A DNA stretch of 22,323 nt from a virus: positions 1 to 22,323 of IMG/VR virus record IMGVR_UViG_3300046007_012031, one strand, 5' to 3'. This document shows positions 1,882 to 14,188 of this stretch, piece after piece. The translations under genes and the position numbers were made by a program. How positions within the stretch are numbered: position 1 is the stretch's first letter; each line of letters opens with the position of its first letter. The notes beneath the pieces are model-generated. The model was not told the origin of the DNA and made no database searches. It saw nothing but the letters and a program-made list of their open reading frames with translations.

Positions 1882-2235
1882 GGGGCATACTAGGTATTGA
1901 CTGAATATAGTCGTAATTAGTAAGCATGTAGTGCTAGATTGGAAGCACTTAAATCTGTCTATTAAAATTTGAATTGACAACACATTCGTTGTATCTGAAA
2001 ATTTCCTTGACGAAGCTACATGTAGCTTTGCTGGAGAGCTTGCAGTAGCCTAATACTGATGATGGTGATAATTCACCTAATGGTGGTAAAGTCCACTACA
2101 TGATGGTAGTCCATTCGCTTTCGGTTAACAAGCGTAATAGTCAGCTTATTTCGGAAGGTTAGAAAACCTTGACCTAAACATGTAGAAAGCTTTTGAAGAA
2201 TATTCAACACTAGGGTTCGATTCCCTAATGCTCCA
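1882..2235 (+). ncRNA. ssrA: Transfer-messenger RNA (tmRNA)
   Basis: A 354-base tmRNA. The ends form a tRNA-like acceptor, GGGGCAT (1882-1888) with ATGCTCC (2228-2234), including the G3-U70 pair needed for alanylation, and a T-arm TAGGG-TTCGATT-CCCTA. The encoded 3' end is A-CC-T, so CCA must be completed. The tag frame ends at TAA 2051-2053 and reads ...SENFLDEATCSFAGELAVA. Where the tag begins is uncertain (perhaps the codon at 1994 or 1997). The C-terminal LAVA replaces the usual LAA-type degron. Between the tag and the 3' end several hairpins are visible, consistent with pseudoknots. Role: rescue of stalled ribosomes and tagging for proteolysis. The gene sits between clpP and a homing endonuclease gene. 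Confidence 0.9.
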
Positions 2236-2252
2236 CCTTGAACTTTTTGTAC

Positions 2253-2976: not shown

Positions 2977-3014
2977 AACCCTCGGCAAGTCGCTTTGTCG
3001 GGGGTTACTTTTTT
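2977..3014 (+). terminator. Rho-independent terminator
   Basis: AACCC (2977-2981) with CG pairs below faces CGG-GGGTT (2999-3006), followed by a run of T. It ends the GIY-YIG transcript. Confidence 0.75.
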
Positions 3015-3033
3015 ATGGTAAATTTTCAAATAT

Positions 3034-3060
3034 ATGATATTTATTTAGAAAACATATCAT
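3034..3060 (+). promoter_or_regulatory. Late-type element overlapping a start-codon hairpin (holin-like gene)
   Basis: ATGATAT (3034-3040) pairs with ATATCAT (3054-3060), 7 bp, and the right arm includes the first two bases of the start codon at 3059. ATATTTAT at 3037-3044 overlaps the left arm and loop. Confidence 0.5.
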
Positions 3061-3313
3061 GAAAAAATTTTTTATTAATTGTGTGTCTTCGGATGGAAAA
3101 GTTTCCAGTAAAAGATTGGTAACATTGTTGGCTTTCTTAATGATGGCAACAGGTTTTATAAGCAACCTATTTTGGAAGTTTACGATTGACCCAAATATTT
3201 ACGATTCAATGAAATGGATAGTAATTGGTGGTCTAGGTTTTACAGCTTCTGAGCAGTTTTCTAATAAAAACAATGGTCCATCACTAATCAACACTGAAAA
3301 AGAACAACAATAA
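3059..3313 (+). CDS. Two-helix membrane protein, holin-like
   Basis: An 84-residue protein with two predicted membrane helices: residues about 19-39 (RLVTLLAFLMMATGFISNLFW) and about 49-66 (SMKWIVIGGLGFTASEQF), joined by a short polar loop and ending in a hydrophilic tail. The layout resembles small phage holin or holin-like proteins of Bacteroidota phages, but no family-specific motif is decisive and no lysin gene is adjacent. It has a late-type promoter element upstream and a strong terminator directly after the stop, so it is probably expressed alone and late, which fits a lysis role. Confidence 0.75.
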   Translation: MKKFFINCVSSDGKVSSKRLVTLLAFLMMATGFISNLFWKFTIDPNIYDSMKWIVIGGLGFTASEQFSNKNNGPSLINTEKEQQ

Positions 3314-5407: not shown

Positions 5408-5480
5408 GACTCCTTGGTGTTAGCGGTAGCATATCGGTCTCTAAAACTGAAAGGCGTGGGTTCGAATCCCACAGGAGCCA
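5408..5480 (+). tRNA. Amber suppressor tRNA(CTA)
   Basis: Acceptor GACTCCT/AGGAGCC (one A-C mismatch at 2-71), D-stem GTG/CAT, D-loop TTAGCGGTAG, anticodon arm TCGGT-CTCTAAA-ACTGA with U33 and A37, T-arm GTGGG-TTCGAAT-CCCAC, A73. The anticodon CTA reads UAG. The D-stem has T11-A24, an elongator trait. The amino acid cannot be told from the sequence alone. The gene is 54 bases upstream of a gene with an in-frame TAG. Confidence 0.88.
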
Positions 5481-5510
5481 CAAAAATTTGACTTTTTAAA
5501 CAAGTAAACT

Positions 5511-5518
5511 ATATTTAT
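5511..5518 (+). promoter_or_regulatory. Late-type element before the peptidyl-tRNA hydrolase gene
   Basis: ATATTTAT, 16 bases before ATG 5535. The spacing matches the CCA-adding enzyme gene (16) and the gene at 9475 (16), which supports ATG 5535 as the true start. Confidence 0.5.
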
Positions 5519-5534
5519 ATAAAACAACAAAACA

Positions 5535-5885
5535 ATGACACACTAGATTAACCAAAAATTAAGAGTCGTATCCCGTAGGGATTTACCACTGTCAGTCCAA
5601 GCAGTTCAATCGGGACATGCTGCCATTGATTTCCAACATCAACATCCAGTTGAAGCACAGGAATGGCACACCAAATCAAACTATTTAGCCTTTTTAACTG
5701 TTTCGGATGAAGCTGAACTTATCAAGCTCATCACCAAGGCCATTCTCACAGGTATCAAACATACCATATTCCGTGAGCCAGACTTAAACAATCAAATAAC
5801 TGCCGTTGCATTCGAAGCTAGCGAAGCTGCTCGTAAACTTACCAGTTCATGCCCATTATTAGGAAAGGAGGTGAACTATGTGTAA
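5535..5885 (+). CDS. PTH2-type peptidyl-tRNA hydrolase with an in-frame TAG at codon 4
   Basis: ATG 5535, then ACA CAC TAG (5544-5546) ATT AAC, followed by an uninterrupted frame to TAA 5883-5885; 116 codons counting TAG as sense. After the TAG the protein reads KLRVVSRRDLPLSVQAVQSG then HAAIDFQHQHP, the N-terminal pattern of PTH2-family peptidyl-tRNA hydrolases, which free tRNA from peptides dropped by ribosomes. No ATG or GTG start occurs between the TAG and this conserved start, so expression seems to need UAG reading by the tRNA encoded just upstream, or an unusual start codon. The end overlaps the next gene, whose AAGGAGGTG ribosome site lies inside this frame. Confidence 0.82.
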
Positions 5886-7801: not shown

Positions 7802-8983
7802 ATGAAAGAAAACATCAGACAAATATTAAGAGAAGGGCTTGTACGTGAAGAACGTATCAAGTTTGATTTGCCCATCCCACAGGATATCCAACAAATAAAA
7901 GACGTGTTCAAAAAGAACGGTTTTAAATTATATGTTGTTGGTGGTGCTGTTCGTGATGCTATATTGGGCAAGACACCAAAAGATTACGACCTAGCTACTG
8001 ATGCAGTTCCAGACAAGGTAGAACAAATAATGGCCAAGGCTGGATTCAAAACTCTTCCAACAGGAAAAGCGTTTGGTGTTATAAATGTATTCACTGACCA
8101 AGGTGAATACGAGATTGCTACGTTCCGTGAAGATTTGTCTGGTGGACGTAGACCAGATGCTGTAAGTTTTACAGACATTGAAGGTGATGTAAAAAGACGT
8201 GACCTTACAATCAATGCATTGTTCTACGATATTGACACACATGAAATTGTTGACCTTGTAGGCGGTGTGCAAGACCTTAAAAATGGTGTTGTAAGAACCG
8301 TTGGTGCACCAGAAGATAGATTTGGTGAAGACCGTTTGCGTATCATGAGAGCAATACGTTTTGCTGGTAGATTCGGAAATGAATTGGACCCAGCTACTGA
8401 TGCTGCGTTGCAAAAAGATGCGAGTCTTGAAGGTATTTCTGGTGAACGTATTCGTGATGAATTCATCAAAGGAATCAAATCTGCCAAGTCACAAAAACAC
8501 TTCTTGGAAATGTTGGACAAATACCATTTGTTTGATTGGATATTCAAAGGGTTGAATGTTGATATGGATTTCATATCAAGAATAGGTGGTTACAATCATG
8601 ATGATTACATCGTGTTATTGGCAAGACTTCTAAAGAAAAACAACTTGGATGTATTGAAGAAAAAGTTGAATGAATTGAAATACTCTGTTGAAGAAGTGAA
8701 AGCCATAACATTCCTTATTGCAATGTTGAAATTGGATGTTGACACAGCTGTTACATTAAAAAAGGCTGAACAACATGCTGGCGTATCTCAAGACCAAATC
8801 AGAGACTTTTGTGGCAAGGAAAACGTTCCATCACAATTGCTAGATGCATTTGAACAATTCAGACTTACAGTGAGTGGTCCAGAGGTGATGGATAAGATGG
8901 GGTTAAAACCAGGTCCAGAGTTGGGCAAAGCAATTCAAAAAATTGAAACTGATAATTTCAAAAAGTTACTGGGCATCTCTTGA
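7802..8983 (+). CDS. cca: CCA-adding enzyme / poly(A) polymerase family tRNA nucleotidyltransferase
   Basis: A 393-residue class II tRNA nucleotidyltransferase, adding CCA to tRNA 3' ends. Seen: the catalytic GGAVRD (47-52) and PKDYDLAT (59-66) with the metal-binding DxD, RRDLTINAL (132-140, sugar recognition), the neck motif EDRLRIMRAIRFAGRF (176-191) and GERIRDE (214-220). Family members of this sequence type can be CCA-adding, A-adding or poly(A) polymerases; the context favours CCA addition because 24 of 25 tRNAs here stop at C74 or earlier, as does the tmRNA. The N-terminus MKENIRQILREGL is extra to the family and matches the start of the kinase-phosphodiesterase at 14227 (MKDRIKEILRESS). 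Stop is TGA, rare in this window. Confidence 0.93.
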   Translation: MKENIRQILREGLVREERIKFDLPIPQDIQQIKDVFKKNGFKLYVVGGAVRDAILGKTPKDYDLATDAVPDKVEQIMAKAGFKTLPTGKAFGVINVFTDQGEYEIATFREDLSGGRRPDAVSFTDIEGDVKRRDLTINALFYDIDTHEIVDLVGGVQDLKNGVVRTVGAPEDRFGEDRLRIMRAIRFAGRFGNELDPATDAALQKDASLEGISGERIRDEFIKGIKSAKSQKHFLEMLDKYHLFDWIFKGLNVDMDFISRIGGYNHDDYIVLLARLLKKNNLDVLKKKLNELKYSVEEVKAITFLIAMLKLDVDTAVTLKKAEQHAGVSQDQIRDFCGKENVPSQLLDAFEQFRLTVSGPEVMDKMGLKPGPELGKAIQKIETDNFKKLLGIS

Positions 8984-10818: not shown

Positions 10819-10909
10819 GGAGGGGTAAACCGAAATTGGTATCGGCCTAGTCTTGAAAACTAGTCAGCGGTGATGAACTGCTGTGTCGGTTCGAGTCCGA
10901 CTCCCTCCG
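10819..10909 (+). tRNA. tRNA-Ser(TGA)
   Basis: Acceptor GGAGGGG/TCCCTCC, anticodon arm CTAGT-CTTGAAA-ACTAG, long variable arm, T-arm GTCGG-TTCGAGT-CCGAC, G73. A normal class II serine tRNA with U33, the canonical partner of the variant just upstream. Confidence 0.9.
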
Positions 10910-10921
10910 CAAGCTTCGATT

Positions 10922-13501: not shown

Positions 13502-14188
13502 ATGAAAGACTTTATCAAACACAAAGTGCAACAAGAAATGCACAACAAGTTAATCGAAAACCTAATGGATGAAGATTACCCATCTAGCTTCGACATGGAG
13601 CATTTTAAATCATTAAGAAAGTATTCTGAAAGAGTTAAATATTGTGACCAACACTTACAAAAAATATCTTCTGGCAGTGCTAGAATCGTTTACATTATTG
13701 ACAACGAAAAAGTTTTGAAGCTTGCCAAAAATGAAAAGGGTGTTGCACAATGTGAAGTGGAAATCCAATGGGGTAATGATTCTTATTTAGGTGGTATTTT
13801 GGCCAAAACACTTGATAGCCATCCAGATGGACTTTGGGTTGAAATGGAATTAGCTAGAAAAGTTAAAAAAGGTGATTTTAAAACACTTGCTGGTTTCAAT
13901 TTTGATGATTTGAACACATACTTGCGTAATGCTGAACAACAAATGAAAGGTAGAAGACCCATGTTCAGCATTGACCAAAATGTACAGGAGGCGATGGAAC
14001 AAAATGAATTTGTTGTTGAATTGGTGGACCTTATGAATTCCATGGATGCACCAGCTGGTGACATGACCAGACTTAACTCTTACGGAATTGTTAAAAGAAA
14101 TGGTCATGATACTATAGTGTTGATTGACTTTGGTTTAACCAATGATGTTTATAGTGATTATTATGATAGAACAAAAAGTAGGTATTAA
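13502..14188 (+). CDS. Protein-kinase-like fold protein
   Basis: A 228-residue protein with kinase-fold features: a glycine-containing loop SSGSARIVYIID (56-67), the VLKLAK strand with Lys73 as the probable ATP-binding lysine, acidic residues at 84-88 for a salt bridge, a GD pair (186-187, GDMTRLNSYG) in the place of the catalytic loop, and DFG at 209-211 (VLIDFGLT). The HRD motif of eukaryote-type kinases is missing; the GD...N pattern is nearer to aminoglycoside phosphotransferase folds. It may phosphorylate a host or virion protein, or be a pseudokinase. The N-terminus MKDFIKHKVQQEM is a helical extension, similar in style to other phage proteins here. Late-type element upstream. Confidence 0.75.
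   Translation: MKDFIKHKVQQEMHNKLIENLMDEDYPSSFDMEHFKSLRKYSERVKYCDQHLQKISSGSARIVYIIDNEKVLKLAKNEKGVAQCEVEIQWGNDSYLGGILAKTLDSHPDGLWVEMELARKVKKGDFKTLAGFNFDDLNTYLRNAEQQMKGRRPMFSIDQNVQEAMEQNEFVVELVDLMNSMDAPAGDMTRLNSYGIVKRNGHDTIVLIDFGLTNDVYSDYYDRTKSRY

Follow-up and report, generated by a model that had tools for sequence, protein, structure and literature searches.

Introduction

Stop codons are recoded in phages that use genetic code 15, among them crAss-like and Lak phages (PMC9523058, PMC8346664), and a code-switch model has been described (PMC10879173). The prfB gene, which encodes release factor 2, is autoregulated through an early in-frame UGA (PMC12421855). Both elements, recoding in phages through suppressor tRNAs and an early in-frame stop in a translation gene such as prfB, are then already known. 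The jumbo phages XacN1 and RsoM2USA carry a CUA tRNA for which no target was identified (PMC5852040, PMC8504454), the latter report guessing only that several genes are targeted. A survey of jumbo phages proposes ribosome rescue as the role of phage PTH2 and mentions neither stop codons nor suppressors (PMC7824862), and no suppressor or amber mechanism appears in the text of the mBio 2024 paper on tRNA-dependent lysogeny (PMC10865867). In open-licence papers we found no conserved amber gate that acts on a single gene near its tRNA while TAG is still a stop, and a prior report is possible.

Here we analyse a virus record of 22,323 bases (the window), which reads as a 22 kb piece from the genome of a huge phage. 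In the phage collection, the DNA most closely related to it comes from uncultured phages of 630-640 kb.

Results

The locus

A preliminary description of this DNA had noticed a CTA tRNA followed by ATG-ACA-CAC-TAG-ATT and a PTH2-type open reading frame of 112 codons, and ARAGORN, Rfam and PF01981 place these features at the same coordinates (Table 1). The frame continues from the ATT at 5547 through 112 sense codons to a TAA at 5883-5885. If the TAG is read as sense the product has 116 amino acids, with its core at 5547-5882. A gap of 53 nt separates the tRNA from the ATG. As expected of an amber suppressor, the tRNA forms a cloverleaf with a CUA anticodon. It is elongator-like, has discriminator A and carries no encoded CCA; its acceptor end, read from the sequence, has a G1-C72 pair and an A2/C71 mismatch, and the GGG/CCC stem of initiators is absent. 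The CCA-adding enzyme encoded in the window would mature tRNAs that lack an encoded CCA.

Table 1. Features of the amber-gated locus and its context in the window
Feature	Position	Strand	Evidence
tRNA, CTA anticodon (anticodon 5441-5443)	5408..5481	+	ARAGORN; Rfam RF00005, 52.2 bits
TATATTTATA promoter-like element	5510..5519	+	also precedes the ATG in the majority of close relatives
ATG start codon of the candidate amber-gated gene	5535..5537	+	in one frame with TAG and core in the window and 99 loci
conserved in-frame amber codon TAG	5544..5546	+	99/136 distinct loci; TAA or TGA in none
EPD-type PTH2-like gene, with putative readthrough of the TAG	5535..5885	+	PF01981, AlphaFold2 model, VIA structure match
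tmRNA, ribosome-rescue neighbour (context only, outside the switch)	1882..2238	+	Rfam RF00023, 64.5 bits
CCA-adding enzyme (context only)	7802..8983	+	PF01743, 125 bits

Two other RNA predictions were noted in the window. The tmRNA was found by Rfam and is absent from the ARAGORN output; a tmRNA also lies upstream of the EPD-type gene in two relatives. The Ser(TGA) tRNA that ARAGORN predicts at 10819-10910 also exceeds the Rfam threshold for selenocysteine tRNA (48.7 vs 47 bits), and is probably a long-arm tRNA-Ser.

Conservation of the early TAG

Relatives of the gene were gathered from IMG/VR and from GenBank phages, the 5' end of each was read, and identical cores were removed, leaving 136 distinct loci. 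The preliminary description had proposed aligning homologs to find their starts. Read in this way, 99 of the 136 loci carry an in-frame TAG 0-6 codons past the start, which is ATG in 97 of them and GTG in 2. Another 34 have an ordinary start, two are cut by a contig edge, and the remaining odd locus (L161) perhaps contains a frameshift. No early TAA or TGA was found in the 136 loci. Carriers of the early TAG include cultured jumbo phages of Erwinia, Pectobacterium and Xanthomonas, and a scan of GTDB genomes returned one relative, without an early TAG.

Across the 99 loci the TAG is constant, and the flanking codons, the distance from ATG to TAG and the distance from TAG to core all vary. The base after the TAG is A in 76 loci and G in 21; a purine 3' of an amber codon favours suppression. 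In a protein tree of 132 sequences, built on a short alignment of about 100 columns and with many forks unresolved, the TAG-bearing part covers 35.7 substitutions per site and the early-TAG trait needs 7 changes.

The in-frame TAG could in principle come from a sequencing error, and a check of the base calls at 5544-5546 had been suggested. Since a separate contig (L013) carries the identical ATG-ACA-CAC-TAG, and about 100 relatives have an in-frame TAG, sequencing error is excluded. Taken together with the alternative of a decaying pseudogene, this explanation has the in-frame stop itself in its favour and nothing more; against the codons shared with L013, the conserved cores of the 99 TAG loci and the intact fold, its probability is negligible.

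The start site

In the window the stretch from the TAG to the first conserved strand contains no ATG, GTG or TTG, as had been claimed, and the same holds up to the conserved core in most of the 99 early-TAG loci. The claim that a promoter-like element stands at its standard spacing from the ATG likewise agrees with our data: TATATTTATA is 25 nt upstream of the ATG in the window, and about 23-33 nt ahead of it in most of the close relatives; elsewhere in a 368 kb relative (G004) it recurs mainly 20-30 nt ahead of starts. A Shine-Dalgarno-like sequence is present in 35 loci, where its spacing to the ATG preceding the TAG is almost always 5-9 nt and does not depend on the distance from ATG to TAG; the exceptions are the Myrna-type mycobacteriophages (1 nt) and L160 (13 nt). 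The codon after the TAG is ATT in 49 of the 99 loci, and AAT, GTA, GTT, CTT, GGA, AGC, ACT and more in others. Because the Shine-Dalgarno spacing fits the ATG and the codon after the TAG varies, translation outside mycobacteriophages probably starts at the ATG, and the earlier preference for readthrough over a start at TAG or ATT is upheld.

The same data bear on whether translation begins after the TAG by reinitiation, at ATT or another unusual codon, with ATG-TAG serving as a leader mini-ORF. The prevalence of ATT would suit such a start, as would the mycobacteriophages, in which a GTG directly after the TAG lies at a good Shine-Dalgarno distance and is where GenBank starts the gene. The variety of codons at this position and the spacing that suits the upstream ATG outside mycobacteriophages nevertheless make it very improbable, and the same two observations disfavour a non-AUG start in general, including one at the TAG. 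In the mycobacteriophages, where a CUA tRNA follows the gene at a distance of 130-310 nt, the sequences are ambiguous and readthrough may not be needed, because the GTG after the TAG fits the Shine-Dalgarno sequence better.

An ATG followed by one or two codons and a stop might also act as a minigene, causing drop-off of a short peptidyl-tRNA that regulates the product or is relieved by it. The minigenes of lambda bar cause drop-off of short peptidyl-tRNAs; the geometry here matches theirs, and the gene behind the leader has a PTH2 fold. Drop-off, however, requires no specific stop and no CUA tRNA, yet TAG alone is used and a CUA tRNA is linked to it, and readthrough would still be required for the protein. 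We regard this explanation as highly unlikely.

The gene has been missed by GenBank annotation because of its in-frame TAG. In CBB and XbC2 it is shortened to start at an inner codon, and Erwinia phage pEa_SNUABM_50 has no CDS over it (these three are loci L065, L066 and L073, around 3001-3312). Gene callers, then, omit or truncate this candidate amber-gated gene even in cultured phages.

TAG elsewhere in the genomes

The preliminary description had also pointed to the absence of TAG among the stops of the window and to phages that reassign this codon. None of the 29 stops in the window is indeed a TAG, but this is weak evidence, since TAG makes up only about 3-6% of the stops in related phages, and a set of about 30 stops would fairly often contain none. 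Reassignment in general fails in the relatives read at length, for which we reject global recoding: TAG terminates 20 coding ORFs in G004, 8 in CBB and 10 in the 400 kb of LR756501 that were read, and in-frame TAGs within coding regions are few in all three. Neither mark of code 15, many genes with in-frame TAG and no TAG terminators, was found there. In G004 no coding ORF other than the EPD-type gene has an early amber that a later start could not avoid, and in CBB the remaining matches to the early-amber pattern have plausible later starts or look non-coding. Depletion of TAG relative to TGA terminators in CUA-bearing phages was not consistent.

It could still be argued that TAG is an ordinary sense codon in a code 15 phage, reassigned genome-wide, so that its position near the start is meaningless. 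The presence of the CUA tRNA would agree with this, together with a second in-frame TAG in the core of two relatives (L158 and LR756501) and an internal TAG in one further gene of G004. However, besides the TAG terminators, the confinement of internal TAGs to few genes and the single unavoidable early amber of G004, a neutral sense codon would have drifted across the divergence measured on the tree, and we consider general reassignment improbable.

Two loci of G004 merit separate mention. Its phrog_4301 gene (239121-239792; L036 19121-19792) has an internal TAG at a position where the homolog in the window (13502-14188) has a serine codon, and is a possible second target of readthrough. At 348073-350880 (L042 8073-10880) an ORF of 663 codons is followed by TAG-x-TAG and 269 further codons with coding-like composition, which is a possible readthrough extension.

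The partner tRNA and the putative inserted residue

A CUA tRNA is present in the fetched locus of 77 of the 99 early-TAG genes and of 5 of the 34 homologs without TAG (Fisher p 8e-11, a value that ignores relatedness and compares loci with different flank sizes). With 7 changes on the tree, the association is not independent of ancestry; a test on independent pairs never pointed in the opposite direction, with too few pairs for significance. The other 22 early-TAG loci have no CUA tRNA in the fetched piece, which is incomplete in some cases, and two of them show one under relaxed settings. In CBB, pEa_SNUABM_50 and XbC2 the CUA tRNA is about 3-4 kb from the gene, and of the 62 tRNAs in G004 the one beside the EPD-type gene alone has a stop-reading anticodon. 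Three contigs with TAG-free homologs were read whole: G018 and G014 lack stop-reading tRNAs altogether, and the one in G010 is distant from the gene.

The sequences weakly favour glutamine as the amino acid read at UAG, because L246 (in G018) reads ATG-AAG-CAG against the ATG-AAG-TAG of others, the position of the TAG is occupied by CAA in L214, and the second in-frame TAG of L158, in the core, aligns with a Gln consensus.

Among the TAG-free homologs, L068 (Lak-A1), L018, L067, L215, L222, L253 and L258 often have a predicted UUA tRNA within about 1.2 kb, although that of L067 overlaps the gene end and may be spurious. A universal TAA-reading tRNA has been reported in Lak phages without evidence of TAA recoding (PMC8346664). 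The hydrolase-like genes beside UUA or UCA tRNAs (Lak-A1, L018, L020, L215, L222, L253 and L258) have no early TAA or TGA, and a pattern search of the genes neighbouring these loci gave nothing convincing and no early TAA. The UUA and UCA tRNAs near some TAG-free homologs are a hint that the protein may have stop-reading tRNAs in general as its partners.

The encoded protein and its neighbours

The gene had been taken to encode a translation-rescue enzyme. The PTH2 part of this claim stands: the ORF of the window matches PF01981 with 27.4 bits (cut-off 23), and an AlphaFold2 model of the EPD-type protein (pLDDT 94.5) matches the PTH2 structure 3erj (VIA) with Z 15.7 and rmsd 2.1 over 107 residues, and archaeal and human PTH2 structures with Z about 15. 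Fold and PF01981 thus place it in PTH2, and its scores stay below the NCBIfam Pth2 equivalog cut-offs (25.9 vs 82 and 24.7 vs 126 bits). The GK lysine and the DxGxT motif of canonical PTH2 are absent and an EPD motif is found instead; invariant residues of this type include R10, D12, Q21, H24, E77-P78-D79 and T85 (positions within the 112-residue core). We class the gene as a divergent 'EPD' paralog of PTH2: the canonical Lys, Asp and Thr, which we take to be the catalytic residues, are absent, and this makes its role in rescue uncertain.

Several phages carry two genes of PTH2 fold, a canonical one with an ordinary start and a divergent one of EPD type. Canonical copies with ordinary starts are CBB gp587, Myrna gp36, XacN1 ORF295 and those of LR756500 and G010; among the copies examined, only EPD-type genes carry an early TAG. 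The TAG precedes the first strand, so according to the model the inserted residue would lie outside the folded core. XacN1 has a related domain within a longer protein without an early TAG, and therefore the amber gate does not explain the CUA tRNA of that phage.

Four relatives (G001, G003, G004 and G005) encode an RF1-like protein of about 175-185 aa, 2-3 kb upstream of the EPD-type gene; none was seen in the window. The mini factor of G004 (225489-226043; L036 5489-6043) spans RF1 residues 166-333, lacks the N-terminal half and keeps the P-x-T motif (PPT), which is of the RF1 codon-recognition type. The tmRNA, the CCA-adding enzyme, this RF1-like factor and the published PTH2 survey support, without proving, a role in connection with stalled or misterminated ribosomes.

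Discussion

What the genomes show directly is the TAG codon and how it is conserved, together with the start site and a linked tRNA, and on these grounds readthrough of the early TAG is well supported. An early stop that usually lies close to a tRNA able to read it, in many different giant phages, looks like a conserved on-switch, and we think it probable that the gene is amber-gated, being expressed only while the suppressor tRNA of the phage is active. The course of events that we infer in vivo is as follows. Ribosomes would initiate at the ATG just past the promoter-like element and meet the UAG within a few codons. If host release factor 1 won at this point, termination would follow after a very short peptide, leaving no protein product. 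Once the phage CUA tRNA had been made, matured and charged, it would outcompete RF1 and the UAG would be decoded as an amino acid, giving the full-length EPD-type PTH2-like protein only in cells where UAG suppression is ongoing. The likeliest purpose would be to tie a factor that acts on tRNAs or stalled ribosomes to the period in which suppression generates readthrough and stalling products.

A different purpose for the same readthrough is negative feedback. The PTH2-like protein would hydrolyse or sequester the peptidyl- or aminoacyl-form of the CUA tRNA, and the amber codon would be a thermostat that caps suppression, much as the in-frame UGA of prfB reports on RF2. The PTH2 fold is compatible with this, and so are the linkage of the gene to stop-reading tRNAs (CTA, TTA or TCA) even where no early stop is present (13 of 34 TAG-free loci) and the RF1-like mini factor upstream of the gene in four relatives. 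On the other hand, the canonical Lys, Asp and Thr are absent, hydrolase activity is putative, and the gene persists in two TAG-free contigs that encode no stop-reading tRNA. Although the data are consistent with both rescue coupling and feedback, we hold feedback to be rather unlikely. Tentatively, and with limited confidence, the CUA tRNA and an amber-gated tRNA-acting protein might form a self-contained circuit that senses and sets how far stop codons are suppressed in the infected cell, and that has been retained by jumbo phages whose hosts differ widely; in some phages such a feedback circuit would have an RF1-like mini release factor nearby.

Many large phages with the standard code carry suppressor tRNAs, and the putative amber-gated gene is a specific and conserved candidate target for them. 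Since this candidate is present in cultured phages, what phage suppressor tRNAs are for can now be tested directly. If real, the arrangement would be a natural amber switch of compact design, and of broad interest to studies of gene regulation and of the genetic code.

The closest described systems each share part of this arrangement. As in code-15 phages, where Gln is known or favoured, a phage CUA tRNA would turn UAG into sense so that selected genes are expressed; there, however, many genes with many TAGs are involved, whereas here it is essentially one gene with one TAG 0-6 codons in, and TAG is still a stop. As in prfB, a stop near the start of a translation-related gene, found here in 99 loci, would make expression depend on how that stop is decoded, but prfB uses a +1 frameshift, while in the present gene the ORF is in the same frame as the ATG and the TAG and a dedicated tRNA lies nearby. 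Finally, the protein resembles phage PTH2 (PMC7824862; PF01981) in its fold, its occurrence in jumbo phages, its tRNA-rich neighbourhood and the proposed rescue of ribosomes or tRNAs. Unlike canonical phage PTH2, it is divergent and lacks the Lys, Asp and Thr, and the canonical copies found in some of the same genomes start ordinarily.
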